DNA from: Branchinecta lynchi
Lineage: Eukaryota; Arthropoda; Branchiopoda; Anostraca; Branchinectidae
Assembly: GCA_023053575.1 (NCBI GenBank)
Contig: JAKZAP010000009.1
Coordinates: 15,543,869 to 15,607,868 of the forward strand
Length of the DNA stretch: 64,000 bases
Direction of reading: 5' to 3'
Each line of letters opens with the position of its first letter. Position 1 is the stretch's first letter. A program made the translations under genes and the position numbers. The notes under the pieces were generated by a model. That model was not told the DNA's origin. It saw nothing but the letters and a program-made list of their open reading frames with translations, and searched no databases. Below, one piece after another: positions 26,301 through 39,980 of this stretch.

Positions 26301-27012
26301 AGTTGGAAATTATTAGAAATAGTCGTACATATATACAAAATCTGAATTTCAAATCATGCATATACACCTCGCGGTCACTAGCCAACTAGTTGGCTACTGT
26401 AAAAAATTCCTATAGGAAAAGCTGGCGTTGCCGACTAGTTTGCTGCGAGTAGTATATAATCGCCGATCCTAGACCACCCTCCCCCCAATTTCAAAACCCC
26501 ATTTTAACATCAATTTCTTAAATTTTAACATCCTTTTTACCAAATTATCCCCCTTTTCAAGAACATTTTTATTTTCTTACTTCCAAAATAAAGGATACAA
26601 GAAATGAGAATATTACCCTTTACTACATATAAAATACTACAATATACACTACTTCTTTTTTATTCAAATATTACTGACTAAACAGTTCTAAATCCACATA
26701 TGTTTCTTTGTTCTTGTTTTCGCGTACAATCGGTTGCAAAATCAGATTTTTCTTTACAAGTAATTCGTTAGCAATGGCATTATATCTCTGTGGAATAAAC
26801 AAATCACAGGGTTTGTCATTATGATTAATAACTACAACCAACTTATCACCATATTTTGTCTTAGCAATTCTCATTTTAACGATAGTATATTTCAAACCTA
26901 GAACTAGTTCTTCTTTCCTGATTGTCTCATTGTATTTATTCATTCTGATTGTATTCAAGACTTCCTTTGTAGACTCCATTTATTAGGGGATGATTTTATT
27001 AAATAAAAATCC
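26301..27012. repeat. Polinton left terminal inverted repeat
   Basis: 712 bp whose reverse complement matches 39,410-39,980 and then 45,915-46,063. The inner limit is 'aaataaaaatcc' (27,001-27,012), matched by 'ggatttttattt' at 39,410. The terminal 145 bp carry one unit of the CCAACTAGTTGG-type repeat that is amplified at the right end. Confidence 0.9.
26671..26979 (-). CDS. Small TIR-borne Polinton protein, candidate OB-fold DNA-binding protein (left copy)
   Basis: 102 residues. Function is not established. The central segment alternates short hydrophobic beta-like stretches with charged turns (V-K-M-R-I-A-K-T-K-Y-G-D-K-L-V-V-V-I, then D-L-F-I-P-Q-R-Y). This resembles small OB-fold single-stranded-DNA-binding proteins, so a role in replicating the element ends is possible; that is inference. 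Lys and Glu are abundant and there is no signal or membrane segment. The start is preceded by CCTAATAAATG, the element's gene-start signal. It lies wholly inside the left TIR and has a near-identical twin at 39,443-39,751, differing at four residues (D/N, P/T, R/K, V/L). It is the last gene of the minus-strand series, 36 bp downstream of the capsid gene. Confidence 0.75.
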   Translation of the reverse strand: MESTKEVLNTIRMNKYNETIRKEELVLGLKYTIVKMRIAKTKYGDKLVVVINHNDKPCDLFIPQRYNAIANELLVKKNLILQPIVRENKNKETYVDLELFSQ

Positions 27013-27015
27013 AGA

Positions 27016-28389
27016 TCACAAACTCACATACATATTTTTGTTAATAATACCTAATGTAGCTTTTCTTTCATAATATATAACACAGTAAATATTATATGGT
27101 ACAGGCTGAGCGTGTTTTAATGTTAAATTTATTTCAATATCAGCAGTTGTTCCATTATATATACTTGATTCGTGTTTGGAAACATCGAAACAGAATAGTG
27201 GATATACTTCTTTAAATTCTTCTATACTAACAACACTACCAGTATCAAATGCTAATTGCTTATAGCCCAAATGTATGAACCTATTGTAAAGATTTGAGTA
27301 TTTACATTTCTCATCGCTAAAGTCGCATTTGAGTGGTTCTTCAGGATATTTATCTCCATTAATTCTAAGTTCTATGTCTGTTAAATTCATATGATCAAAC
27401 ACCATATTATTCATTAATTGATTGTTATGCTTTTCATTTTTCTGTAACATCACAACGATTTTTGTAGGACTATTTCTCTCAGACACAACTTTCCAGGTGT
27501 GCTCCTTATTCTGACTAACATCACTTTTATAACTATTACATGCTTCCCACATCAGATTATGCTTTTTATCCTTAGCAAGACCCTTTTCTAATTCACTCAT
27601 CATTTCGATACTAGGAGCTACAATAGGGATCTTCCAGGATAAATACTCGATTACTACTTTGAAATTAGTATTTCCATTTCTTATAATCATGTTGTTATCA
27701 TCATTTCTTCTTAGAAATAATTTATGCGATGCACCTCTGAAGAATCGTTTGTTTCCTTTCAGAAATCCAAACAATTCTGATAATGGTAAATACATATTTA
27801 CTAATTTACTGCTCTTTGTTCTGTTATATCTTTTTTCAAATCCTTTATTATAATTATTATTATTTCTCAAACTGACTGTTCCACCCCCTGCTGCAGCCCC
27901 TGCAGCCCCTGCTACTACTGGAGTTGCAGTAAACGAAGCAATAACAGGATTAATTTCTTTTCCTTGATTATAATCCTTATACCAGAAATGATTTCTTGCT
28001 GCACTTCTAGAATAATCATCAGAGTATTCAATCAACTTTGTAACGGTAGTTGTAATACCAACATGATTAATTTTTTCAACCGATTCATCGTTTATTACAT
28101 ATTCAGCGGTACTGAATAAATTAAATCCATTGTTCGTCAAAGTAGCAATATCGGTTGCAGCTATATTATCTCCATTTTCTTTCACTATTCTTACACTAAC
28201 ATCAAGATAACTTTCACTTGGATAAAACCAGGAATCTAATTTCTTCGTTACGAATTCAAACTCTGATTTATTAGATACATTCACATCTGTTTCTCGAATT
28301 TCTTTAAATTCATATTTAACCACTGTTTCATCCACAAGCGGTTCATCAAAAATGTTCCATTGCGGACTGATAACTTTATTTACTGCCAT
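27016..28389 (-). CDS. Polinton major capsid protein (double jelly-roll, hexon-like)
   Basis: 457 residues. By length, position next to penton and pVI-like genes, and sequence style I assign it as the double jelly-roll major capsid protein that forms the pseudo-hexameric capsomers. The N-terminus has the S-Y-L-D-V-S-V-R-I beta strand and N-L-F-S-T-A-E-Y block usual in the first jelly roll. Residues about 155-170 form a Gly/Ala-rich loop (G-A-A-G-A-A-A-G-G-G). The C-terminal half has further beta-rich stretches ending N-I-Y-C-V-I-Y-Y-E-R. No membrane segment. The start is preceded by TTATATAAATG, and the next gene upstream ends 30 bp away, so a compact virus-like transcription unit is likely. 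The frame is intact. A structure prediction would confirm the fold. Confidence 0.85.
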   Translation of the reverse strand: MAVNKVISPQWNIFDEPLVDETVVKYEFKEIRETDVNVSNKSEFEFVTKKLDSWFYPSESYLDVSVRIVKENGDNIAATDIATLTNNGFNLFSTAEYVINDESVEKINHVGITTTVTKLIEYSDDYSRSAARNHFWYKDYNQGKEINPVIASFTATPVVAGAAGAAAGGGTVSLRNNNNYNKGFEKRYNRTKSSKLVNMYLPLSELFGFLKGNKRFFRGASHKLFLRRNDDNNMIIRNGNTNFKVVIEYLSWKIPIVAPSIEMMSELEKGLAKDKKHNLMWEACNSYKSDVSQNKEHTWKVVSERNSPTKIVVMLQKNEKHNNQLMNNMVFDHMNLTDIELRINGDKYPEEPLKCDFSDEKCKYSNLYNRFIHLGYKQLAFDTGSVVSIEEFKEVYPLFCFDVSKHESSIYNGTTADIEINLTLKHAQPVPYNIYCVIYYERKATLGIINKNMYVSL

Positions 28390-28419
28390 TTATATAAGAA
28401 AGAAATTATTAAATAAAAC

Positions 28420-28776
28420 TTATTTCAGAATCTTTAATCCATTTCCAGTCATTAACGTTTTGATCAAGTCCTGACTTCTTTGATTTAAAATCCTTTTATT
28501 TGTACCGATAAGATCCTTCATCGATTTTTTGTTTCCAATTACATCAATGAGTTCCTTCTTGTTTACATTGATCAGATCTTTCCCATATTCTATTGCTCTG
28601 TTTTTCAGCAACTCAAATCTCGGTTTAATAATATTATTATACATTGACATAGCCCCATCTTTTATTTGTTTTGCTGACGTTTGAAATAACTGGGAATTAA
28701 CAATGTTTTTGAATACACTACCGATTCCACTTCCATACTGCTTTTTATAAAGTAATCGCTTATTATTAATCAACAT
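28420..28776 (-). CDS. pVI/pX-like minor virion protein
   Basis: 118 residues, strongly basic. An N-terminal basic tail leads into a Gly-Ser-Gly-Ile-Gly turn and an amphipathic stretch (V-F-K-N-I-V, then helices with K-x-x-K spacing). Adintovirus and Polinton genomes carry such a small protein next to the capsid genes. It is compared with adenovirus pVI or pX, which bind capsid or DNA and can disrupt membranes. A cleavage site of the adenain type (x-G-x-G) could lie at the Gly-rich turn near residue 16, but I did not verify it. The start lies in CCTATAAATG, and it sits between the penton-like and major capsid genes. Confidence 0.65.
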   Translation of the reverse strand: MLINNKRLLYKKQYGSGIGSVFKNIVNSQLFQTSAKQIKDGAMSMYNNIIKPRFELLKNRAIEYGKDLINVNKKELIDVIGNKKSMKDLIGTNKRILNQRSQDLIKTLMTGNGLKILK

Positions 28777-28804
28777 TTATAGGTAAATAATTTTATTTCA
28801 CTAA

Positions 28805-29530
28805 TCAATAAGCTTTTCTTAAATGCAGCACGTATCCAACGTTATCACCATTCAAATCCATAGGTCTTCCCAACTGATCAGTAATTGTCATTCTCAAGGA
28901 GTAAATAAAGTCTTTTGTGTTAATAGGAAGGTAGATTAATTGTCTAGGATTCTCAACAATTTGACAACCCGGTTCTGTATTAGGAACAAATGTCCAAATG
29001 ACATCTGATTTACTTTTGTTTACGATAGAACTGTTTACAAGAGAGCAGTGAATTTGTATTTTATCAACGCTTCTTGTTATATTCGGAAGCTTTGTACCTT
29101 CATTGATTTTCTTAGATATCTCACTATCCTTCTCAAATCCTAAAATCTGACACAAGTCACTATTAAATCTAAACACATATTTTTCTTGTAATAGTATGAC
29201 AAATCTCATAGATGCTGGATTGGATGAAATTACAATAGAACATTTATCTTTTGGGGTATCAAAATACTGACACAAAAAATAATTCAAACAATCATCGTTA
29301 TACATCCCATTAGGAATAGTAACATTCATCCATTCTGTTGCATTATTATCTTCATCTTTCCTGTATTGAAATGTATTATTTCCAAATTTATCACTTATAT
29401 TATGCCATGAATACCACAAAGTACACTGATTCAAACCTATTTCATAATCCCAATTACGATTCAATTCGATTGGTTGACTAAATGTTATATCAATGATACT
29501 TTCATTACCTTCAATGTTTAACAACACCAT
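28805..29530 (-). CDS. Polinton minor capsid protein (penton-like single jelly roll)
   Basis: 241 residues. It opens with a beta-rich D-I-T-F-S-Q-P-I-E-L, then W-D-Y-E-I-G-L, and ends with I-Y-L-P-I-N, L-R-M-T-I-T-D-Q-L-G-R-P-M-D-L-N-G and Y-V-L-H-L-R-K. The final block (D-Q-x-G-R-x-x-D-x-x-G-x-x) is characteristic of the Polinton/adintovirus penton family, which occupies the five-fold vertices. The start is within CTAATAAATG. The stop codon of the upstream coiled-coil gene lies inside that same signal (29,534-29,536), so the two genes are only 3 bp apart. The frame is intact and no membrane segment is seen. Confidence 0.85.
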   Translation of the reverse strand: MVLLNIEGNESIIDITFSQPIELNRNWDYEIGLNQCTLWYSWHNISDKFGNNTFQYRKDEDNNATEWMNVTIPNGMYNDDCLNYFLCQYFDTPKDKCSIVISSNPASMRFVILLQEKYVFRFNSDLCQILGFEKDSEISKKINEGTKLPNITRSVDKIQIHCSLVNSSIVNKSKSDVIWTFVPNTEPGCQIVENPRQLIYLPINTKDFIYSLRMTITDQLGRPMDLNGDNVGYVLHLRKAY

Positions 29531-29533
29531 TTA

Positions 29534-30358
29534 TTAGAAATAATTTTTATATATTGAATTGTAATTTCTCTTCGTAAGAAATTTATTTCGCATTAACGAA
29601 TCCAAAATATCAATAGCTTCATTTCTCACCTCATCAGATGTATTTCCGTTTACTCTGCTACCTATCAAAGTGTATAATTTTGAGATCATTTCATCACAGT
29701 TCATAAATATTCCAGTTCCTTTTTGTTGAACTAAAAATGGGGAATTAGTTCGAATGCTGGTTAACCTCTCCTTGTATTCTCTTATAAATTCAAGGATTTC
29801 ATCATAGCTAGAGTAACCTTTACCTTTTTTCCCGCCATAACTTTGACTTAGAGATGTCAAACGTTCTAGAGCTTCATCTATATCCGTATGATGCTTAATG
29901 TAATACGTAGGCATTTTAAAATAAGTATCAGTGCCACCCCGCGATTCTACATGTTTTAAATTAATCTGATTTAACAACTCTTGGGTAATATCTTTATTCA
30001 TATCAACGGATAGTGGTCCTAAATCGGGAGAAGGTTCTAAAGCGGGTGCTCGACTCACTTCCTCTGAATTTGGAATCTGTAAAGCTGTTTGAAATGTATC
30101 ACCTAATCTGAGAAACCGTCTTCTTGAATTATTATCACCTTCCTGTAGTTTATTAATTATCGTTTCAGCGTTCTCTTGTAATTTTTTGATGGTATCTTTA
30201 GTGTTTTCTTTTTGTGCTATAATAACTGGAGCGTTTAACTCTGAAGCATATTCCCGAAATCCTGCCTTCTCCATCTCATTTTGTTGAACCTTTCTTCTCT
30301 GAACTTCTCTGTTCTTCACTATATCCGATAACATATCACTCAAGCGTCTTGAATCCAT
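29534..30358 (-). CDS. Conserved-position Polinton virion protein with coiled coil
   Basis: 274 residues. I do not recognise a catalytic domain. Residues about 1-80 are highly charged and predicted helical (D-I-V-K-N-R-E-V-Q-R-R, K-K-L-Q-E-N-A-E-T-I-I-N-K-L-Q), suggesting a coiled coil. A Pro-rich linker follows (A-P-A-L-E-P-S-P-D-L-G-P-L), then a C-terminal helical domain. A Gly-Gly-Lys-Lys-Gly-Lys-Gly stretch near residue 175 could be a flexible or cleavable link. Genes of this layout sit between capsid genes and integrase in many Polintons and are assumed structural. The start is in GTATATAAATG, and the next gene upstream, integrase, ends 16 bp away. Confidence 0.6.
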   Translation of the reverse strand: MDSRRLSDMLSDIVKNREVQRRKVQQNEMEKAGFREYASELNAPVIIAQKENTKDTIKKLQENAETIINKLQEGDNNSRRRFLRLGDTFQTALQIPNSEEVSRAPALEPSPDLGPLSVDMNKDITQELLNQINLKHVESRGGTDTYFKMPTYYIKHHTDIDEALERLTSLSQSYGGKKGKGYSSYDEILEFIREYKERLTSIRTNSPFLVQQKGTGIFMNCDEMISKLYTLIGSRVNGNTSDEVRNEAIDILDSLMRNKFLTKRNYNSIYKNYF

Positions 30359-30374
30359 TTATATACAAGTAATT

Positions 30375-31346
30375 TTATTTCATAATAAATTTTGAAAGTT
30401 CTTTTTCATAAAACCCTCCTTGAATTAATTCCCCACTTTTGTCAGATATTTCATAAGTAATGGGAATGGTAGGTCTGATGGTTGCTATCTGAAATACCTC
30501 ATCCGTATAATTAGGTAAATATCCTTTATCGAAAATACTTTTTTCTTTTTTAATTCTGACTAAATCCCCTACTTTGACGTTTCCTGTGATTTTGTAGTCA
30601 TCTACTGGAGGAAACAGAGCACTAAAAACCTTTTTCTGATTAACCTTTTTACTAGCATCAACTGGTTTCATTTGTATTGAACGGTGGTACGAGTTATTAT
30701 AATTACTCACAAATAAAGGTAAAATATCAATCCAATTAGTAGTGTTATTGTGAGTGAAATATTTCCATAACTTTTCTTTTAGCGTTCTGTTGAATCGTTC
30801 TACAATTTGCGCTTTCAATTCGCTTTCAGATGCAAACCAGTGTATGCCGTTATTTTTCAAAAAAGTTTGAACATTTCTCATCACAAATTCTTTACCTTTA
30901 TCAGTTTGTAGTTTCTTAGGAATTCTTTCTTTAAATATAACACTGAATGCTTTTATTATTTCAGCACCCGTTTTGTCTTTCAGAGGGATACACCAAGCAT
31001 TTTTACTAAAGCAATCAATAACAGTTAAAATGTAATTTGTTTTATTATTTTCTTTTTTATATTTCTGCATGTCAACTAAATCAGCTTGCCATTGCTCATC
31101 AATATAGTGAACATACACTCGCCTCCTTTCAAAGTTATGATAGGAAGGTTTGTGTAACGTATACACATTCTCATTTTGCAACACATTTTTTATTTTATCC
31201 TTGGAAACCTTAACACCATTTTCTTTTAATTTTCTGTAAATATCATCCACACCTGAATAATTAGAATAATACGTCTTTAAAATATCTGTTTCTGCGTTGA
31301 GGTTTTTTTTAAAAAGCGATTTTTCCTTGATCCGCAAATAACACAA
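30375..31346 (-). CDS. Polinton retroviral-type integrase (rve), -1 frame partner
   Basis: 323 codons from the first position of this open frame, which starts with TTG rather than ATG. The first in-frame ATG falls inside the catalytic core. The DDE core is visible: W-Q-A-D (Asp 89), Q-T-D-K-G-K-E-F (Asp 149) and I-V-E-R-F-N-R-T (Glu 183), with 33 residues between the last two acids. A C-terminal SH3/chromo-like segment (V-G-D-L-V-R-I, then G-Y-L-P-N-Y-T-D-E-V-F) may bind DNA or chromatin. It would join the element ends to the host chromosome. The frame has no TAAATG start of its own and is preceded, in the 0 frame, by a zinc-ribbon ORF. Translation probably begins there and shifts at 31,307-31,313. 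An indel is the alternative. Confidence 0.9.
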   Translation of the reverse strand: MCYLRIKEKSLFKKNLNAETDILKTYYSNYSGVDDIYRKLKENGVKVSKDKIKNVLQNENVYTLHKPSYHNFERRRVYVHYIDEQWQADLVDMQKYKKENNKTNYILTVIDCFSKNAWCIPLKDKTGAEIIKAFSVIFKERIPKKLQTDKGKEFVMRNVQTFLKNNGIHWFASESELKAQIVERFNRTLKEKLWKYFTHNNTTNWIDILPLFVSNYNNSYHRSIQMKPVDASKKVNQKKVFSALFPPVDDYKITGNVKVGDLVRIKKEKSIFDKGYLPNYTDEVFQIATIRPTIPITYEISDKSGELIQGGFYEKELSKFIMK

Positions 31347-31444
31347 TTCCCTTTCAGCATTGGAACATTATTTTTTTGTGACACTGCCTTAAACATTGAT
31401 TCAGTGTCAGTGCTCTTTTTACATTTCATACAATAAATCTCCAT
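31303..31444 (-). CDS. Zinc-ribbon ORF upstream of and out of frame with integrase
   Basis: The ATG at 31,444-31,442 is preceded by CTAATAAATG, the signal used by all other AUG-started genes of the element. The frame reads M-E-I-Y-C-M-K-C, then after 25 residues C-V-I-C-G-S, a C-x2-C...C-x2-C zinc ribbon (Cys 5, 8, 34, 37) of the type found at the N-terminus of viral and Polinton proteins. It then enters the run TTTTTAAAAAAAA and meets a stop within about ten codons. The integrase frame is -1 relative to it and both frames overlap at this run. The most economical view is that this is the N-terminal domain of integrase. Too short for a simple ORF search. Confidence 0.75.
31307..31313 (-). promoter_or_regulatory. 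Candidate -1 frameshift site T TTA AAA (zinc ribbon to integrase)
   Basis: In the frame set by the ATG at 31,444 the codons are TTA AAA preceded by T, a canonical X-XXY-YYZ slippery heptamer. A -1 slip enters the integrase frame exactly. I see no strong hairpin directly downstream. The run of eight A also makes a sequencing or mutational indel possible. Confidence 0.55.
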
Positions 31445-31475
31445 TTATTAGAAAACAATTTTCTTAAACGAAAAG

Positions 31476-31808
31476 CTACCAACTCTTCATTTTCCGCTGG
31501 ATGTAGGAAATGCAGTGAAAACCACAGTTTAATTCATCTATATTTTGAACAGCAAGATTTTCATAAGCTATTTTTTTCTTTGAAGTTTTTAGATATTTAA
31601 CTATTTCTTTTCCTGGAGGAATACCGAAAGAATCGAAAAATTCGACATAGGGGTATTCAGATAGATTACAATAGGCAACCCAATGTGTTCCAGGCATTCC
31701 ACGTTTGTCATAGTTGATTACACCACATTCCGAATCGTTTATATGTTTGGGTAGCGTATCTAAAGAGAAAACACCTCGAAACTGTGGTATACTCCCTAAT
31801 GCATCCAT
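31476..31808 (-). CDS. Adenain-type cysteine protease (maturation protease)
   Basis: 110 residues from the only in-frame ATG. The catalytic set of the adenovirus protease/Ulp1 clan is visible: G-T-H-W-V-A-Y (His 42), Y-V-E-F-F-D-S-F-G (Asp 59) and N-C-G-F-H-C (Cys 95), in the order His-Asp-Cys. The R-G-V-F block near residue 11 is also typical. It would cleave virion precursors during maturation. The segment just upstream in the same frame (G-P-L-T-N-F-D-I) matches the usual start of this family but has no ATG. That frame stays open to 31,877, overlapping the AT-hook gene in its -1 frame. No TAAATG signal precedes ATG 31,808. I infer synthesis as a -1 frameshift fusion with the upstream protein. 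Confidence 0.88.
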   Translation of the reverse strand: MDALGSIPQFRGVFSLDTLPKHINDSECGVINYDKRGMPGTHWVAYCNLSEYPYVEFFDSFGIPPGKEIVKYLKTSKKKIAYENLAVQNIDELNCGFHCISYIQRKMKSW

Positions 31809-31831
31809 AATATCAAAATTAGTTAGAGGTC

Positions 31832-32401
31832 CTACTTTACTTTTGCTTCTTTTTTGATGTCCCCGTTTTTTGACTTCCTAGGTCTTCCACGTACCCCATG
31901 ACCGACAACTCTTTGTGTTCCAGGAAGTGTTAGCGCTCCACCTGTGTTGACATCATCGATTTTTTCCTTCTTAGGTCTACCAAGTACACCATTACCGTTA
32001 ACTTTTTGTGTTCCAGGAAGTTTTAGCGCACCACCTGTGTTGGTCATTTTATCCATAATTTTCTTACCAGCGAATGTACCCAAAGCAGCAGCACCACTTG
32101 TTAAAGCTGCCTTACCAAGGGTAATTGCTAGCGGTATTAAAAATGGAAGTAATCCACCTTTTTGAATCGCTTCTCTCATCTGCTTGTATGATACATCAAT
32201 ATCACAACCCTTATTATTCATTTTACAGGTTTCAATTTTATCAATTTGTCGTTTACTTAAAAGTAACTTAACTGGTTCTCGTTCATTTTGTCTACTATGA
32301 CTAACACGTATCTGACATTTTTGTTTAGCATCAAAGCATTTCTTCAGCTTTCCTTTCTGAAGCTTTGACAAATAAACTGTATACTCCATTGTTTCAACCA
32401 T
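31832..32401 (-). CDS. Basic AT-hook virion/core protein with hydrophobic helix
   Basis: 189 residues. The N-terminal 80 residues are Lys/Arg-rich and contain two diverged repeats around L-S-K (V-Y-L-S-K-L-Q-K-G, L-L-L-S-K-R-Q-I-D-K). Residues 83-115 form a long hydrophobic segment starting G-G-L-L-P-F-L-I-P-L-A. The C-terminus has two copies of a ~26-residue repeat, N-T-G-G-A-L-x-L-P-G-T-Q-x-V...G-R-P-K/R-K, at 121-146 and 152-177. The second ends R-G-R-P-R-K, a canonical AT-hook, and the first G-R-P-K-K is AT-hook-like. It may package or condense the genome, comparable in position to adenovirus core or pX-like proteins. The start is in CCCTAATAAATG. A slippery heptamer at codons 178-179 leads into the protease frame. 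Confidence 0.75.
   Translation of the reverse strand: MVETMEYTVYLSKLQKGKLKKCFDAKQKCQIRVSHSRQNEREPVKLLLSKRQIDKIETCKMNNKGCDIDVSYKQMREAIQKGGLLPFLIPLAITLGKAALTSGAAALGTFAGKKIMDKMTNTGGALKLPGTQKVNGNGVLGRPKKEKIDDVNTGGALTLPGTQRVVGHGVRGRPRKSKNGDIKKEAKVK
31865..31871 (-). promoter_or_regulatory. Candidate -1 frameshift site A AAA AAC (AT-hook protein to protease)
   Basis: In the AT-hook gene frame the codons are AAA AAC preceded by A, a canonical retroviral-type slippery heptamer, followed directly by GGGG. The -1 frame has a stop at 31,878-31,880, just before the site, and is open from the site through the whole protease. The geometry is therefore that of a gag-pro overlap. No clear downstream stem is visible by eye. 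Confidence 0.65.
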
Positions 32402-32431
32402 TTATTAGGGAATAAATTTATCTTATAAAAT

Positions 32432-33055
32432 TTATTTACCAGCCATCATTTTTTCTATTCTGGTAACGAATGGTTTGTCAACAGGTTTTAGCTCTAGCTC
32501 TAGAAGCCTTTTTAAAATATTTACTACTGCTCTTTCAATATTATCGATACGAGTTTTTTGACCAGCAATCTTTCCTTCAATTATACCGTTATGGGTGTGT
32601 TGCCCAAGAAGCTTTTTGTCATAATCTAAAAGATTCATAGTTAACGTTGCTAAATTAACAGCATCATTTTTGTTTCTAGGGTTTTGAACATTTGTTATCA
32701 ATTTGTTCTCAGCATCAATTTCTTTCTCATTAACTCGAATTATTTCTTTTACAAATAACCCTTTATCATTAATCCTTACCAATAAATTTTTAGGAGAATC
32801 ATGTACCGCAGTTAATCTGTTGATATCTTCGCTAAAATACTGATTTATCCCCACTTGTTGTGCGGTAATTTCTTCTTTAAATTGATTCAAAATAATAGTC
32901 ATCAACCTTAAGCTAATCGCATCCTGATCTGCTTTGGCATCACCTAAATTAACAATTCGCCTATCCTGTAGGTTAATGTTACCGTTTTCGTCAGTAACTA
33001 CCTTTGCATTCGATTCGTTACTAACCTTTTTTCCGACACTACCAAATTTATTCAT
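32432..33055 (-). CDS. Fibre-like trimeric protein
   Basis: 207 residues. It has repeats of the kind used in phage and viral fibres: I-N-L-Q-D-R-R-I-V-N-L-G-D-A-K-A-D-Q-D-A-I-S near residues 27-50, and N-K-L-I-T-N-V-Q-N-P-R-N-K-N-D-A-V-N-L near 117-135. The pattern n-x-I-x-N-x-x-x-P-x-x-x-x-D-A-V-x belongs to triple-stranded beta-helix stalks. A helical heptad-like C-terminal segment follows (I-D-N-I-E-R-A-V-V-N-I-L-K-R-L-L). It could be a vertex fibre or attachment protein; this is inference from the repeats and from position between core protein and ATPase. The start is in CTATAATAAATG. The frame is intact and shorter than adenovirus fibres. Confidence 0.6.
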   Translation of the reverse strand: MNKFGSVGKKVSNESNAKVVTDENGNINLQDRRIVNLGDAKADQDAISLRLMTIILNQFKEEITAQQVGINQYFSEDINRLTAVHDSPKNLLVRINDKGLFVKEIIRVNEKEIDAENKLITNVQNPRNKNDAVNLATLTMNLLDYDKKLLGQHTHNGIIEGKIAGQKTRIDNIERAVVNILKRLLELELKPVDKPFVTRIEKMMAGK

Positions 33056-33071
33056 TTATTATAGAAATAAA

Positions 33072-33749
33072 TTATCCGGTAAATTTTTCAAAGTTTTTCC
33101 TGTACTTAAGGGTTTTATCTTTTATTTTTAAATCTATGAAGAAAAAACCGTAGCCCTTGGTTGCAGTCTCGAATTGTTTGAGAAATTTTTCATTGTCTAT
33201 ACTGGATACATGGCTTTGTCTTATTAATTTTACTTCTTTTGGATTAGAACACTGAAAGAATGCAAAATAATTGCACTGGAGCCTTACCACCTTTGGCGTT
33301 TTATGATAGCTTTGAGACAAGTAAATAATTGAGGCATTTTTCTTTCTTCCTCTTATGAATAAATCTTCTATTTTCTTCTGGTCTTTTTCAGTGACAAAAT
33401 CGTCAAAGATAATCAAGTTTTGGTACTCAGGGTCTAAGTCGTCAACATCGACAATATCATCAAGATTGTTACTTACTCTTAAGACTTTCGATTTGCATTG
33501 TGACTCCAAAGTGGTTAAATTGGTTATAAGGTCTTGATATTTATCTTCTTCAAGATCTTTAGCATACAAGTATATTCGGTTGAAACAAAGATATTCATAA
33601 ATTAAATTCAAAAGAAGGTTAGTTTTCCCTGTTCCAGAACTACCACAAATTAAGAGTCTGAATGGCCACTGAGGTGCAAGGTCGTGCTTATTCTGATAAG
33701 TGTTCTTTTCACTAAAATCATAGACTTTGATTGGAGCCTTTTCATTCAT
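33072..33749 (-). CDS. FtsK/HerA-type genome-packaging ATPase
   Basis: 225 residues. Walker A is G-S-S-G-T-G-K-T at 36-43, and Walker B is N-L-I-I-F-D-D at 111-117, followed by F-V and, after a helix rich in charged residues, S-I-I-Y-L-S-Q-S-Y, a sensor strand. Arg 157 or 158 in the following K-V-V-R-L region could serve as arginine finger. The length and motif spacing match the A32/FtsK-HerA packaging ATPases of Polintons, virophages and adintoviruses, which pump the genome into preformed capsids. The start is in CCTAAATAAATG. The fibre-like gene begins 16 bp downstream. Upstream is a tandem repeat array, then the polymerase. Confidence 0.93.
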   Translation of the reverse strand: MNEKAPIKVYDFSEKNTYQNKHDLAPQWPFRLLICGSSGTGKTNLLLNLIYEYLCFNRIYLYAKDLEEDKYQDLITNLTTLESQCKSKVLRVSNNLDDIVDVDDLDPEYQNLIIFDDFVTEKDQKKIEDLFIRGRKKNASIIYLSQSYHKTPKVVRLQCNYFAFFQCSNPKEVKLIRQSHVSSIDNEKFLKQFETATKGYGFFFIDLKIKDKTLKYRKNFEKFTG

Positions 33750-33777
33750 TTATTTAGGAAGAATTTTTCATTATAAG

Positions 33778-34084
33778 ATTTACTTGAGTATTTTAAGTAT
33801 ATACTTGAAGTTTTGAAGTAGGTACTTGATTTTTTTAAGTAGGTTCTTGAATTTTTGAAGTAGGTACTTGATTTTTTTTAAGTAGGTACTTGATTTTTTG
33901 AAGTAGGTACTTGAATTTTTTAAGTAGGTACTTGAAGTTTTGAAGTAGGTACTTGAAGTTTTTAAGTAGGTACTTGAATTTTTTAAGTAGGTACTTGATT
34001 TTTTTAAGTAGGTACTTGAAGTTTTGAAGTAGGTACTTGAATTTTTTAAGTAGGTACTTGAATTTTTTAAGTAGGTACTTGAAT
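33778..34084. repeat. ~20-bp tandem array AAGTAGGTACTTGAATTTTT
   Basis: About fourteen copies of a 20-22 bp unit, each with the near-palindromic AAGTAGGTACTTG core and an A/T spacer, fill the space between the polymerase stop codon (34,085-34,087) and the ATPase gene. The array abuts the stop with no gap. It can form many small hairpins, so it could act as a terminator or spacer. Its core resembles the hAT-like MITE in the first NANS intron (47.6-47.8 kb). Confidence 0.9.
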
Positions 34085-37000
34085 TTAATGTTTATAACCT
34101 AAAGGTAAAGTGTGTATTTTATCGCTTGTTACTATCCTTTTATCATCCTTAGGATCTAACGCTTTTTTATTCTGTTCTTCTAGAAACATATTGTGCTTGT
34201 ATGATGTTAAGTTATACTGGGTTACAGAAAGGTTTTCAATATTTCCAAACAGTACATCCTTATAGTTTTGAAGTGTAATTTTATCTTTAACTATATTGGT
34301 TTTTATTCCTTTCAGTTTTTTGCTAGCTTTTGAAGGGTCTTGGTTGTCCTTTAAATAAGCATATACTTTTGATCGTAATCCAACAAACTCTGTCATAACC
34401 TGTCCACCTAATTCATCTTTCATCATTCCTATCACTTTCTTATTTACACTAGGAAACCCATATGGATTATCTTTCGCATACTCAGATGTATCGAACCTCT
34501 CATTCAAATCCTGTTTGATATCTTGATAAAAATCTTCAGTTCTAATATCATATATGAAAGAATCAGTGTCCATATAACACAAATCAATTTTATCTCCATA
34601 TTTAGGCTTCATATAATCATAATGGAATTCATACATCAATAACTTGGATAGTTCCAATACAGCAAAGCCGATATACATTGGTTTGTCTAATTTTATCTTT
34701 TCCTTCGACATTCTTGCTACTGAAAAGTTTTCACTAAAAATTATTTCAGATTTAAAGTTGGGTTTCTTTATTATTTTTTCTCTTGTTGCATCATCCGTTA
34801 TTATTTCCATATCCGCTCGCTTCCTTACGTTTTCCATAGTTTTTCCAAAGCAAGCATTATTCATAAGCTTAAAGAAATCCTTTTCAAAGTCATTTGTACC
34901 TTTAGTTCTAAGTGCTGTGTTGTGGTCTATGTATCCTTTTAAGTAAGCACTTTCAGTGAATCCTAGTATTCTGTGTACTCTTTTCAATATCAAACCTTTT
35001 TGTAAATAAAATTCTAGATTCCTGTGGTGAACTACATAGTTGGTTTTATCTAATACTGTGGTACATAGCTTACCGTTAAAGTGTTCCGGTGCTAATGGTA
35101 AATCCTTGTGTAATTCATGTAGTTCTTTTGGATATTCTAAATCTACCTCATATATAGCACCTACATTCTGTAATTTCATTATCGAATTGATATGAGTTTT
35201 TAGATGGTTGTAATACTCGATTGATTCGTATTCATTCCTTTCTTTCAAATCATCCGGTATGCAAATGAATTGGAAATCATTCGCTGGTAAATTCTGCGAC
35301 ATTGCCCACCCATATAAATTATTTTTATCTAAATACACTAAATAATTAGATGGCTTATTCTTATTATAATCACTTGTATATTTATTATTTGCTTTTGCGT
35401 ATCTTTTTATACATTGGGATACACCACCTCTTATTCCTTTTTCTATAAAGGTATACATGTCTTCCTTTGAGAATAACGGCAAGTCTACTTTCGAATGCTT
35501 TAGGAAAGCATCCCATGTTAGTCCTGGAGCTGAGAAGTAATGAAGTGGATCCAGATCATAATTATGTATACACACATTTCTGAAATTCTCTACAAAATCC
35601 GACAATATTAAAACATCACTTTTTAGGTACAACTTGGTATAATCAAGTAAAGTTTCACAGTTAAATTGTTTCCATATAGATACCGCTCTTTTATAATCAC
35701 TTTTGTCAATACCTTTCCCCGTCAACCTAGAATAAAAGCTTTCAATGGATGGTAACTTTGTACAATTCATTTTATCGAAACTATCTACGAATTCATAGGG
35801 ATACACCCCTTTTTTAATTATTTCTTTGAATTGATCGTCATTTTTGAAGCTGTTAGATGTGAATTTGAAATTCTGTCTTAGATGATTACAAGGTACTTTG
35901 CAATCACATGTTGCTAAATTTGCTGATAGTTTGTCTAAAGATGAAGCCATAAATCTAATTGAATCTATAAACCGCATCTCATATTTTATTTCCGTATCCG
36001 CTTTTGTAATAATTATTGATTTTGAGAATGAGATGAAACTTTCTGCACTTTCAAAAATTCCGTTATCAGGTATCAATTCTCTAACAAATAAATGAGAATC
36101 ATATTTTGATAAATTATGCATTACTACCGGGATATGCCTAGGAATCCTGTATTTCATATTACATTCAGCATGAGCAAATCCCCTATCTTCTCCTGTCATG
36201 TGGTCGTGATCAAAGTGAGGATTTTCAGTAATTTCAGTTGTACAGATGTGACAAGTCTTATTCATTAGATTTTTCCATTTTTCGGTAATTTCTGCATTGG
36301 TATAAGTATGGTTTCTTTGTCTGCTTTCATATTTCTTTGCAATTTCTGTGGATACTTTTGTAACGGTTTTAACAAAATGTTCTGCAGCGTCTTCACCGAA
36401 ATAGTCATAGTATTTGTTCTGGTTTGTATCAAAGGAACAGCATACCTGAAATCCGTAAGCAAATGGTTTCTGTTTGGCCACTTTTATTGTTTTCTTCCCG
36501 TTTACTTGATTGTACTCTTCGTTATAAGACTCAAAGTCGGCTATTATGCAATAAGGTACTTTCATTTGTTTTGCAATATTTTTATATTGTATACTTGAAC
36601 CTTCAGGAGGCATTATAATATCAGGATCTTCGCAATTATTTTTACTCTCATGTTTTTCATATTGTTCTTCTTTTGTAAAATGCCTTCCGCAAAAAGTGCA
36701 GAGGTATGTCTTTTTTTGTCTTGTAGATATTTGAGTGCCGACTAGTTTGCTCAGATCCTTTACCAGTACGTAATGATTATCGAAATACAATAAATTAATA
36801 ACATGTTTAGCTGTTTTGCCATTGATTGTACTTTTTAGTATATGACTTCTGATTATTTTCTCTTTATCAATTTGAAATAAGCAAATCTTAATGTTATATT
36901 TATTTTCAAATGTGTGTATATCTTGTGTATCCATCGGGAAGTTAGTAATCCCTTTGAAATCAAATTCGTTTTCATATTGTTTATAATTTGATAGTCTATC

Positions 37001-38149
37001 AACATGATCCTTAGCTGGATGTAGATTTGCTAAGATAGACCAAAGGAAACATTTCTGGTCGTTATTTTTTATATTTATACACGCTTTTTTATTTTTTACG
37101 AAATCTGGCAGTATTTTAAACGTTCCTCCCATGTAAGATTCTATTCGTGTCATCCTATAATCAATTCCTTCATACCGACTAAATTGTAGCCCAGATCGAG
37201 GGGTATTACTTAAAGAACTCAGTCTCTTGTTATTATCATCCAAATGACTATGAGTAAGTATGCTATTTTTATTTAAAATCCAAGAAGTACTGTTGTAAAA
37301 TACTACTACTTCTTCATCATTTTCCTGTCTATAGAATGTAACACGAGTTACAAACTGAACTCTATATTGATAAAGTTCATTCATTCGCCGCTGTAAATCT
37401 GCGAAAGTAAAAGCAATAAGAGTATCTTTTTCTCTTCCATTGCTTTCAATAGAAACATTGATGGTATAAAGGTTTTCCGTTTCCCTAGAAATAGTAGGCT
37501 GCTGTTCTTCTTCCGTTATAAATAAATGATCAGGAATTAATTTTTCTTCTTTGATTTTTTTCTTATTTATAAAGAGAGTTGATAAACCAATTGGTTTCTG
37601 TCTACTGTTATCACGTCTTTCTGTTTGATCTCTTATGATATCTCTATTTTTCTGTTCGGAATCTTTATGTTTGGTAATAATATTATTATAGTATTCTCCA
37701 ACTCTTTTTAGTACTTCTTCTCGGTTTCCGCGAGTTGATAGGTTCTTGTTTTTCAGAAATTTCTTTAATTCGCTTGTCTCTTTTTCTTTGTTATCATTGT
37801 ATTCTTGTTTTAGTTTTGTAATGGTGATATTATTTTCTTTTATCTCATCTTCCAGAATGGTTCGTAATCTCGGTTCTGGTTTGTAGTCGGATGGTCTGTT
37901 CTTATTATGAGTTCTTTCGTTTCTGCGTTCAATTTTAATTTTATCTTCAGCTATCAAAATATACTTATTAAGATGGTTTATTATATTATTTGTTATTTCA
38001 TGTTTCTTAGCTCCATTTGTTTTGATTTTATTAATTTTCGCATAAGTCCGCAGTTCATTATATGTGTATAGCGATAATCTTTGTATACCCGCTTTGTTGT
38101 TTGATATAACCTTTTTACAAAGCTGAATAACCTCTGCAGTATTCATCAT
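34085..38149 (-). CDS. Protein-primed family B DNA polymerase (Polinton pPolB)
   Basis: 1354 residues, within the range for animal Polintons. N-terminal region: two SAP-like helices (about 25-58 and 126-155), a domain with Cys 367 (C-F-L-W) and His 459 (N-H-Y-V-L) resembling a papain-like fold common at this place in Polinton polymerases, and a C2H2 finger (C484, C487, H500, C506). Exonuclease: D538-x-E540 (motif I), H-N-L-S-K-Y-D (II, about 678-684), Y841-x3-D845 (III). A Cys/His insert (C633, C636, H645-H650, H660, C663) looks like an endonuclease VII-type zinc site. Polymerase: motif A D941-x3-L-Y, motif B K1094-L-M-N-N-A-C-F-G, motif C Y1192-M-D-T-D-S, then K-V-Y near 1261. It replicates the element from protein-bound ends. 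The start is in CTATTAAATGATG. Intact. Confidence 0.97.
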   Translation of the reverse strand: MMNTAEVIQLCKKVISNNKAGIQRLSLYTYNELRTYAKINKIKTNGAKKHEITNNIINHLNKYILIAEDKIKIERRNERTHNKNRPSDYKPEPRLRTILEDEIKENNITITKLKQEYNDNKEKETSELKKFLKNKNLSTRGNREEVLKRVGEYYNNIITKHKDSEQKNRDIIRDQTERRDNSRQKPIGLSTLFINKKKIKEEKLIPDHLFITEEEQQPTISRETENLYTINVSIESNGREKDTLIAFTFADLQRRMNELYQYRVQFVTRVTFYRQENDEEVVVFYNSTSWILNKNSILTHSHLDDNNKRLSSLSNTPRSGLQFSRYEGIDYRMTRIESYMGGTFKILPDFVKNKKACINIKNNDQKCFLWSILANLHPAKDHVDRLSNYKQYENEFDFKGITNFPMDTQDIHTFENKYNIKICLFQIDKEKIIRSHILKSTINGKTAKHVINLLYFDNHYVLVKDLSKLVGTQISTRQKKTYLCTFCGRHFTKEEQYEKHESKNNCEDPDIIMPPEGSSIQYKNIAKQMKVPYCIIADFESYNEEYNQVNGKKTIKVAKQKPFAYGFQVCCSFDTNQNKYYDYFGEDAAEHFVKTVTKVSTEIAKKYESRQRNHTYTNAEITEKWKNLMNKTCHICTTEITENPHFDHDHMTGEDRGFAHAECNMKYRIPRHIPVVMHNLSKYDSHLFVRELIPDNGIFESAESFISFSKSIIITKADTEIKYEMRFIDSIRFMASSLDKLSANLATCDCKVPCNHLRQNFKFTSNSFKNDDQFKEIIKKGVYPYEFVDSFDKMNCTKLPSIESFYSRLTGKGIDKSDYKRAVSIWKQFNCETLLDYTKLYLKSDVLILSDFVENFRNVCIHNYDLDPLHYFSAPGLTWDAFLKHSKVDLPLFSKEDMYTFIEKGIRGGVSQCIKRYAKANNKYTSDYNKNKPSNYLVYLDKNNLYGWAMSQNLPANDFQFICIPDDLKERNEYESIEYYNHLKTHINSIMKLQNVGAIYEVDLEYPKELHELHKDLPLAPEHFNGKLCTTVLDKTNYVVHHRNLEFYLQKGLILKRVHRILGFTESAYLKGYIDHNTALRTKGTNDFEKDFFKLMNNACFGKTMENVRKRADMEIITDDATREKIIKKPNFKSEIIFSENFSVARMSKEKIKLDKPMYIGFAVLELSKLLMYEFHYDYMKPKYGDKIDLCYMDTDSFIYDIRTEDFYQDIKQDLNERFDTSEYAKDNPYGFPSVNKKVIGMMKDELGGQVMTEFVGLRSKVYAYLKDNQDPSKASKKLKGIKTNIVKDKITLQNYKDVLFGNIENLSVTQYNLTSYKHNMFLEEQNKKALDPKDDKRIVTSDKIHTLPLGYKH

Positions 38150-38450
38150 TTAATAGGGGAACATTTTTATTAATAAATTTCTCCCGTCTGAGTTTTGTCA
38201 GCCGTAAAGAAAAGCACTGGTTTTCCAAATCCTTTACTATGTATTTTCCGACGCCCTTATGGGTTTCGCACATGCTTTACTACTAGTCACGGGTTTCCTT
38301 TATTCTTTACTACTCTTGACGAAATCGGCATTTGGTTACTACTCTTAACGAAAATCCGCTTTTGGTTACTACTCTTGACGAAATCGGCATTTGGTTACTA
38401 CTCTTTATTTTGTTAGAAATATTTTTCGAAACAATTTTATTATATTATAA
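38150..38450. promoter_or_regulatory. Divergent intergenic region with ~32-36 bp repeats
   Basis: The space between the leftward polymerase and the rightward membrane-protein gene. About three tandem copies of 'ggttactactctt(g/a)acgaaa' plus 'tcggcatttt' type spacer occur at 38,315-38,405. TAAATG start signals lie on both outer edges (CTATTAAATG at 38,149 and TTATAAATG at 38,451). It is the only clear divergent promoter region of the element. The control role is inference. Confidence 0.55.
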
Positions 38451-38870
38451 ATGGAAGAATTAGAAAAGAAAATGTATGTTTACCGTCGCAGTTACAAGTA
38501 CTACAATCGTATAAGTAATAGCTTACTTGTATCCAAATTCCTCTTTTCAGCAGCAGGAATGTCTGCGTTTCTAGTGCTACCGCTAGCTTCTTTAAGTTTG
38601 GGTGCTGTTATCATCGAAATAATTGAAAAGCAATTAAGTATTGCTGATAGAAAAGCAGAATTTAGGACTATTTATGATTTTTATACTGAGTTGTTGTCAA
38701 TGCTAAAATGCGGACAGTTAACAATTGAGGAGGTAATTCAGAGAGAAACAGAGATGCGTAAAACCTTTCGATTTTTTCCTCGCGAAAAATACATGAAACA
38801 AGTCCGTCTGAATGGCTATAAATATTGTAATAAATCTATAAAAATTCAAGAGAAATTACCAAACATATAG
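38451..38870 (+). CDS. Polinton-encoded membrane protein, function unknown
   Basis: 139 residues. A basic, Tyr-rich N-terminus (M-Y-V-Y-R-R-S-Y-K-Y-Y) is followed by a hydrophobic stretch at about 24-57 (L-L-V-S-K-F-L-F-S-A-A-G then L-V-L-P-L-A-S-L-S-L-G-A-V-I-I), long enough for one or two membrane passes. A charged helical tail follows (I-E-E-V-I-Q-R-E-T-E). I do not recognise the family with certainty. Small membrane proteins at the polymerase-distal side are common in Polintons. The start is in TTATAAATGG, like the other genes. It is the only non-TIR gene on the plus strand. The intact frame in a compact genome argues that it is functional. Confidence 0.75.
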   Translation: MEELEKKMYVYRRSYKYYNRISNSLLVSKFLFSAAGMSAFLVLPLASLSLGAVIIEIIEKQLSIADRKAEFRTIYDFYTELLSMLKCGQLTIEEVIQRETEMRKTFRFFPREKYMKQVRLNGYKYCNKSIKIQEKLPNI

Positions 38871-39409
38871 TCTATTGCTATACTGAATATTGTTTCCTAA
38901 CTGTCAAACAGATCTTTATTTCATACGCGCATTAATGAGCTGCGTCATTCAAAGGTCTCGCCGCCAATTTGGGATGTAATTACAGTCTCCGGCGTGACTA
39001 ACACAATCTCATCTTAACTCGGAAACTTGTGCGAATTGAACAAGGACCCTTGGTGTAGTGGCTCAACGCTCGGCCGAACGTTGACTCATCACCATTCAGA
39101 CCTTCGAATCCCACTGACCGCAGTTTCTGTTTGTCGATAGTGGGATGGTAATAAAAACTTGCGGGTTCCCCGTTCAGGGCCCCCCAGACTAAGGCCACAT
39201 CACCACAAACACTACACCAATCGGGGTGTACCAACATCACACCTCTTAATTTTCAAAGTCTGGGGGTGTGGGGTTTTGCAAAAATATTTTATAAAGTTCA
39301 AAATCGGTAATCATCATATCATCATGCAAACTCAGTACTGCGTTTTTATCTATCGCATTTATGTGATAAACGTGGTTGGTTTCTATTACCAGATGTTTCA
39401 AAGCGATTG
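38871..39409. other. Non-coding gap inside the Polinton
   Basis: About 540 bp between the membrane-protein gene and the right TIR. It is the only sizeable spacer apart from the tandem arrays, and contains a SINE-like segment (39,047-39,260). GC content is higher than in the neighbouring genes, which fits a foreign insertion. Confidence 0.6.
39047..39260 (+). repeat. tRNA-derived SINE-like insertion
   Basis: 'ggtgtagtggctcaacgctcggc' resembles a tRNA A box and D arm, and 'gaccttcgaatcccactg' about 45 bp later resembles a B box and T arm. The anticodon arm does not pair well, so this is not a working tRNA gene. A GC-rich unrelated tail follows. A SINE head is the simplest reading. I could not identify target duplications. 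Confidence 0.4.
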
Positions 39410-39980
39410 GGATTTTTATTTAATAAAATCATCCCCTAATAAATGGAGTCCACAAAGGAAGTCTTGAATACAATCAGAATGAATAAATACAATGAGACAA
39501 TCAGGAAAGAAGAACTAGTGTTAGGTTTGAAATATACTATTGTTAAAATGAGAATTGCTAAGACAAAATATGGTGATAAGTTGGTTGTCGTTATTAATCA
39601 TAATAACAAACCATGTGATTTGTTTATAACTCAGAAATATAATGCCATTGCTAACGAATTACTTTTAAAGAAAAATCTGATTTTGCAACCGATTGTACGC
39701 GAAAACAAGAACAAAGAAACATATGTGGATTTAGAACTGTTTAGTCAGTAATATTTGAATAAAAAAGAAGTAGTGTATATTGTAGTATTTTATATGTAGT
39801 AAAGGGTAATATTCTCATTTCTTGTATCCTTTATTTTGGAAGTAAGAAAATAAAAATGTTCTTGAAAAGGGGGATAATTTGGTAAAAAGGATGTTAGAAT
39901 TTAAGAAATTGATGTTAAAATGGGGTTTTGAAATTGGGGGGAGGGTGGTCTAGGATCGGCGATTATATACTACTGCTGCG
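39410..39980. repeat. Polinton right terminal inverted repeat, inner part
   Basis: Near-exact reverse complement of 26,442-27,012, including the small gene and the 'ggtggtctaggatcggcgattatatact' outer edge. Beyond this point the right end departs from the left because of array expansion. Confidence 0.92.
39443..39751 (+). CDS. Small TIR-borne Polinton protein, candidate OB-fold (right copy)
   Basis: 102 residues, the twin of the gene at 26,671-26,979, with four substitutions (H-N-N-K here against H-N-D-K; F-I-T-Q-K against F-I-P-Q-R; L-L-L-K against L-L-V-K). Both copies keep the full frame and the same CCCTAATAAATG start. That implies selection, recent homogenisation, or both. Being in the TIR, it is transcribed inward from the left flank in one copy and outward in the other. 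The role is unknown; ssDNA binding is a guess from the beta-rich pattern. Confidence 0.75.
   Translation: MESTKEVLNTIRMNKYNETIRKEELVLGLKYTIVKMRIAKTKYGDKLVVVINHNNKPCDLFITQKYNAIANELLLKKNLILQPIVRENKNKETYVDLELFSQ

Follow-up and report, generated by a model that had tools for sequence, protein, structure and literature searches.

Organisation of the protease and integrase genes of a Polinton-like element suggests two sites of -1 ribosomal frameshifting

How can a DNA element express a protease whose conserved first residues lie upstream of the first ATG of its frame? The question is raised by a 13.5-kb Polinton-like element at 26448-39974 of the window, which is the whole stretch of 64,000 nucleotides analysed here (G000:C22:15543869-15607868, from a genome of 575.7 Mb). 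The element has terminal inverted repeats and typical Polinton/Maverick genes. The rve integrase (PF00665), the packaging ATPase of the Pox_A32 type (PF04665) and the double-jelly-roll capsid protein (PF21738) were matched above the Pfam cut-offs on the minus strand, and the adenain-type protease was recognized by a profile search of the PDB and by Foldseek. The features that frame the element are as follows.

26448..27017, left arm of the terminal inverted repeat, 570 nt, 97% complementary to the right arm
39405..39974, right arm of the terminal inverted repeat, partner of the left arm
34085-38149, minus strand, ORF of 1354 aa with SAP and endonuclease VII domains and PolB-like strings

The 1354-aa ORF contains the strings DFE, NNACFGKTMEN and YMDTDS, which we take to be PolB-like motifs; the Pfam search gave no PolB match for it and no polymerase was among its PDB sequence matches. 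A 207-aa protein encoded at 32432-33055 (minus strand) matched the phage T7 tail fibre N-terminal domain (PF03906) with 26.6 bits at a cut-off of 25.2, which is odd in an element of this kind. PADLOC gave no match and tblastn against phages none. A viral contig collection yielded no relative when scanned with the protease, alignment A1 and the ATPase, and a single locus of 29% identity when scanned with the integrase alignment A4. The copy number in the same genome is high: two protease queries gave 910 and 879 first-look candidates and the core protein query gave 860, and the best 150 of each were scored. Most of the scored copies have open frames, and judged from their sequences the family looks young or recently active.

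The element has nine ORFs of at least 120 aa. Eight of them start with ATG, in every case within TAAATG, and the ninth is the integrase. Four shorter ORFs (one of 118 aa, the DUF5679 gene and one in each inverted repeat) also have a TAAATG start and were counted as genes partly for that start itself. The twelve TAAATG ORF starts are at the following positions.

26979, 28389, 28776, 29530, 30358, 31444, 32401, 33055, 33749 and 38149, minus strand
38451 and 39443, plus strand

A AATAAAATT-like block was seen by eye approximately ten bases upstream of most of the twelve. TAAATG starts with such an upstream block are like poxvirus intermediate and late promoters, an analogy that points to a virus-type polymerase or a helper virus for their transcription. 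The protease and the integrase are the two recognizable genes without TAAATG, and both lie in the -1 frame behind a slippery stretch. The first of these junctions is made up of the following features.

32399..32404, minus strand, TAAATG start of the AT-hook gene
32401-31832, minus strand, AT-hook ORF, basic protein of 189 aa, two AT-hook-like cores, repeat of about 31 aa present twice, TAAATG start
31880-31878, minus strand, TAG closing the -1 frame upstream of the heptamer, which follows six bases later
31877-31476, minus strand, protease of the adenain/ASFV S273R type, -1 frame, stop to stop, 133 codons plus stop
31871-31865, minus strand, slippery heptamer A AAA AAC in the phase of the AT-hook gene
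31834-31832, minus strand, TAG, stop of the AT-hook gene
31808-31806, minus strand, first ATG of the protease frame, a rival start within predicted helix 1 and after P-L-T-N-F-D-I

A sequence-only reading of this DNA had placed the protease in the -1 frame relative to the AT-hook gene, with an overlap of about 45 nt, the -1 stop at 31878-31880 before the site, and A AAA AAC followed by GGGG in the AT-hook phase. All of this was read directly from the sequence (..AAG TCA AAA AAC GGG GAC..), and the overlap is 46 nt. The upstream protein has homologues of 87% (P0005) and 61% (P0006) identity. Its description as an AT-hook core protein is borne out in part: the protein contains the two cores GRPKK/GRPRK behind that name, which are presumably AT-hook motifs, and a Pfam search with it gave no match. 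The repeat of about 31 aa (GGAL.LPGTQ...GRPKK) occupies 31835-32050 on the minus strand, and its copy number seems variable among elements. The core open frames found with the core protein query (best 150 of 860) included lengths of 182, 185, 189 and 216 codons.

The protease likewise gave no match in Pfam. A profile built from five protease sequences found ASFV S273R and adenovirus protease in the PDB with E values of 2e-4 to 3e-4, and the predicted model (pLDDT 84) had adenovirus 2 proteinase (1avp) as its best Foldseek match with an E value of 7e-7. Residues H65, D82, Q111, C118 and C122 were invariant in an alignment of 11 sequences, and we take them to be the catalytic His, the acidic residue, the Gln and the Cys candidates (C118/C122) of an adenain-type protease. 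From the profile, the conserved residues and the model, the protein is predicted to be an adenain-type cysteine protease.

The N-terminus of this protein was examined in copies of the element. Searching the same genome with the protease yielded 910 candidates, the best 150 being scored, and 138 loci were read at the junction; 136 of these were located by script, which missed L029 and L034. These copies are the best protease matches, are closely related to each other and are biased to intact frames, so that the conservation is weaker than the counts suggest. Neither an ATG nor any of the nine near-cognate codons is present between the -1 stop and TNFDI in 130 of the 136 copies, and an upstream non-ATG start of the protease was rejected. 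The claim that the gene has no TAAATG start was confirmed, as none of the 136 copies has a TAAATG near the protease start, and no separate promoter-driven start of this type was found. The motif MK[PL]L[TS]N.DI stands at the N-terminus of relatives with a listed start (P0014, P0057, P0067 and P0069), while in some other relatives the same motif follows a longer N-terminus. The conserved G-P-L-T-N-F-D-I does lie upstream of the first ATG, as the sequence-only reading stated; that ATG is the first rather than the only one, a second in-frame Met being present inside the protein. Because the conserved motif precedes the first ATG, with no ATG or near-cognate codon before it, a -1 frameshift would be needed to reach the protease.

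The protease might instead be a product of its own, translated after re-initiation or leaky scanning from ATG 31808, which lies 23 bases after the core stop. The start context of this ATG is strong (A at -3, G at +4), and in P0001, a relative of 85% identity, the listed start is the equivalent Met. The Met is also kept in the copies examined, a count that is circular in that the locating script required it. A start at this position, however, drops the PLTNFDI that is present in relatives. The protease model shows disorder over residues 1-13, with helix 1 spanning residues 20-27, so a start at Met24 would cut into this helix. ATG 31808 was rejected as the protease start.

Substitution patterns also bear on this point. 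In 135 copies, the 23 nt separating the core stop from the ATG have 4 distinct changes (0.17 per nt), 3 of them silent in the protease frame, versus 0.47 per nt after the ATG. With five indel copies excluded, 3 changes remain in this stretch, all silent. Non-silent changes in these 130 copies amount to 0 of 51 possible versus 66 of 737 (Fisher p 0.017), and the comparison for all changes gives p 0.051. In L120 and L124 there is a change within the core stop itself that is non-silent in the protease frame. Three of the four heptamer changes come from the five indel copies, while that of L117 is real. The linker after the heptamer showed no extra constraint relative to the protease body (0.70 versus 0.47 changes per nt; 0.43 versus 0.36 without the indel copies). 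The stretch upstream of ATG 31808 appears to behave like translated protein, with modest statistics. A separate start at this ATG is unlikely in our judgement, and for the integrase described below the idea fails, as the first ATG of that gene comes after the first catalytic Asp.

The heptamer was compared with chance expectation by codon shuffles. A review counts A_AAA_AAC with the heptamers on which mammalian ribosomes shift most readily (PMC5009743). The chance of any canonical heptamer in phase within the 15 overlap codons is 0.088, and that of one of four top-class heptamers, a class of four named after both sites were known, is 0.024. Taken alone, the heptamer of the core-protease junction is only moderately unlikely and not rare in such A-rich genes. 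The case for frameshifting thus draws its weight from the genomic copies, from the lack of a start and from the second junction rather than from the heptamer by itself.

The relation of the two frames is kept over the genomic copies. The core-to-protease offset is -1 in 129, 0 in 3 and +1 in 1 of the 133 determinable copies among the 136 located. The run is exactly A6 followed by C in 128 of the 136, which answers the concern of the sequence-only reading that a different number of A's might be found, here at the level of assembled copies. The eight without plain A6C comprise five with an A directly before the run, one with a changed heptamer (L117) and two with other run lengths; a core-frame stop is found just before the site in three of the five with the preceding A (L042, L113 and L115). 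In a set of 68 copies the heptamer was unchanged in all 68, and changes were biased to third positions in both genes. The protease open frame is of 133 codons in all but three of the best 150 of 910 candidates (two of 137 and one of 162), with an internal stop in two rows, so that the upstream -1 stop is nearly always at the same place. Eight further short stretches were selected for an odd open-frame length or a low rank. The exact heptamer was kept in six of them as judged by eye; L142 is interrupted by an insert, and L143 has a different run. In one of the six, L141, which has approximately 85% DNA identity, A AAA AAC and the -1 frame are kept with differing neighbouring codons, and the copy is broken further on. 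Beyond L141, P0006 and P0008 are consistent with the shifted layout at the protein level only.

The frame break could in principle be a mutation or a sequencing error in one decayed copy. Decay does occur: core and protease are both open in 67 of the 96 copies with enough upstream sequence, in 23 of the 96 the core stop comes early or late, and 5 have no core ORF. The possibility is nevertheless practically negligible, being contradicted by copies from many contigs, where the offset was -1 in 129 of the 133 that allowed a determination, and the third-position bias in both genes also speaks against it. A short intron joining both frames is very improbable. The genome is large and presumably eukaryotic, and the host can splice, but the frames overlap by 46 nt and an intron would need to sit at the overlap in all copies.

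Copies with one continuous core-protease frame were looked for and are few. With the distant core query, only two of the best 150 of 860 are continuous (308 and 339 codons), the others being of 168-247 codons. With the distant protease query, three of the best 150 of 879 have frames of more than 300 codons, a length that implies continuous core-protease frames, and two of the three were read at the sequence level. The continuous copies (L134, L137, G000:C12:14219359 and G000:C17:7932950) encode a natural fused product. The continuous frame of L137 has 308 codons, the same size as the predicted frameshift product.

A downstream pseudoknot, which the sequence-only reading had advised looking for, did not emerge. 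Folding of the downstream RNA gave a z value of +0.58, with 141 of 200 shuffles folding as well, and a second fold gave a z value of -0.35 (72 of 200); compared with shuffles, no stable downstream structure was found at either site. A crude pseudoknot scan gave a loose candidate of 7 bp plus 5 bp, which was matched by 19 of 100 shuffles, and no candidate at the integrase site. No stimulatory structure 5-9 nt downstream was thus seen at either site beyond what shuffles give. Some -1 frameshift sites need no such structure, so its absence lowers but does not void the assignment as frameshift sites.

A second junction, absent from the sequence-only reading, is located approximately 560 bases beyond the protease junction and is made up of the following features.

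31277..31444, minus strand, DUF5679 zinc-ribbon ORF of 55 aa, PF18930 with 42.6 bits (cut-off 27), TAAATG start, zero frame
31304..31313, minus strand, slippery stretch T TTA AAA AAA, which holds U UUA AAA (31313-31307) and A AAA AAA in phase
30375..31367, minus strand, integrase (rve, PF00665), -1 relative to DUF5679

Both junctions have a heptamer of the form X XXY YYZ in the zero-frame phase (A AAA AAC and U UUA AAA), followed by a gene in the -1 frame. The protease is without a usable start. The integrase has no ATG at its beginning, its first ATG being at 31070, after the WQADLVD motif with the first catalytic Asp, and eight near-cognate codons are present upstream in its frame, at which a non-ATG start may occur. 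A Met before QADLV is absent from the integrase frame in 100 of 107 copies. The DUF5679-to-integrase offset is -1 in 107 of the 117 determinable copies (of 136), and the exact run AATCGCTTTTTAAAAAAAAC was found in 103 of the 136 loci, other run lengths also occurring. By codon shuffles, the chance of some canonical heptamer in the integrase overlap is 0.33, and that of a heptamer of the top class, named with both sites already known, is 0.03.

The variable run raises the alternative of transcriptional slippage, in which the polymerase drops or adds A's. Homopolymers are present at both junctions (A6; T5A8), and the idea fits best at the integrase, where the run is A8 and its length varies among copies. 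The poxvirus polymerase is known to stutter at late starts, which the TAAATG starts resemble. At the protease site, however, there are no more than six A's, followed by the very C that completes the ribosomal heptamer, and this A6C is conserved in the great majority of copies as given above. We regard this alternative as quite unlikely.

The fused product at the second junction would have a known architecture, as in-frame DUF5679-integrase fusions (PF18930 and PF00665) were found in 7 of 120 listed homologues (P0053, P0079, P0087, P0108, P0119, P0123 and P0126). These Polinton integrases have the same two domains in one protein and in one frame, while here nothing but a -1 shift connects the domains. 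The listed N-terminus of P0008 (67-69% identical), MWLQEKSFFKK, may be the -1 reading of a DUF5679 end C-G-..-F-L-K-K, to judge from the protein letters.

Polinton-type integrases were also found at 29 loci in bacterial genome bins. The bins of L150-L164 bear titles such as Nomurabacteria, Ignavibacteria, Limnohabitans and others, and the contigs are probably eukaryotic contamination. Seventeen of the 29 were examined upstream, and 13 of these have a Met ahead of the YY..P-like N-terminal motif of the integrase. L162 starts within a different domain and has its own Met there, L156 is divided over two frames with no heptamer, and L163 and L166 were assigned to neither group. A heptamer in the overlap was seen among the distant loci only in L151 and L164, in both cases in ORFs of 31-43 aa. 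The integrase layout is lineage-specific, as most of the 17 distant integrase loci have their own Met. A protease was found in one of the 30 loci L149-L178, namely L162, where it has its own ATG.

The sequence-only reading had proposed that the slippery site joins the AT-hook protein to the adenain protease in a layout like that of retroviral gag-pro. The -1 relation over the copies and the missing start support this proposal, with ribosomal slippage as the presumed mechanism. We consider -1 ribosomal frameshifting to be the best explanation for the core-protease junction, and a likely one, with the integrase very probably expressed in the same way. The AT-hook gene would be transcribed from its own TAAATG-type start, and most ribosomes would stop at the TAG and release the 189-aa DNA-binding core protein. 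On A AAA AAC a minority would move back by one base and produce a 308-aa fusion in which 179 core residues are followed by 129 of the protease. By way of its core part the protease may reach the DNA or enter the capsid in a small, constant proportion, as in gag-pro, and it may later release itself. The integrase would very probably be made likewise from the DUF5679 gene at U UUA AAA AAA as a fusion of 46 and 310 residues (356 aa).

Retroviral gag-pro(-pol) delivers protease and integrase by -1 frameshifting. The element resembles it in having both genes in the -1 frame behind A-/U-rich heptamers, and the upstream genes look nucleic-acid-binding. It differs in having separate TAAATG-started genes instead of one gag-pro-pol RNA, a cysteine protease of the adenain type, and no pseudoknot found. 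Adenovirus protease has its own start, and its cofactor peptide comes from another precursor. It has 204 aa, and the protease of the element is much shorter (approximately 117 aa from PLTN), with the same fold as the adenovirus protease in complex with the 11-residue cofactor peptide (PDB 1avp, 1nln).

The idea of a frameshift leading into an adenain has a precedent in the literature. In a 2024 preprint, KnotInFrame hints of -1 frameshifts are given for adintovirus Penton genes, together with a "similar relationship" for potential Hexon-Adenain ("Hexain") fusions (PMC11071296). The statement that no frameshift of this kind had been described in Polintons was therefore too strong. Neither a core-adenain nor a DUF5679-integrase frameshift, nor support over many copies, was found in the literature titles and abstract openings searched. 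The adintovirus proposal also concerns DNA elements of the Polinton/adenovirus sphere and an adenain reached from a virion-protein gene by a possible -1 shift. The partner there is hexon or penton and the hypothesis comes from KnotInFrame, while here the partner is an AT-hook core protein, a second site would serve the integrase and approximately 130 copies were read. The core-protein partner, the integrase site and the many copies are what appears to be new.

The broader reading is that a Polinton-type integrated DNA virus uses two -1 frameshifts, appending the protease to a DNA-binding core protein and the integrase to a zinc ribbon, and that a gag-pro/pol-like logic was reached independently in a dsDNA virus under poxvirus-like TAAATG transcription; we favour this reading with some reserve. 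One genome offers many natural copies of both sites. If frameshifting does occur, it would explain why gene finding can lose the protease N-terminus and part of the integrase here (listed starts of P0001 and P0007), and it would yield a claim on how Polinton virions take up their protease. A dsDNA virus with a retrovirus-type integrase would then dose and target both its protease and its integrase by ribosomal frameshifting.
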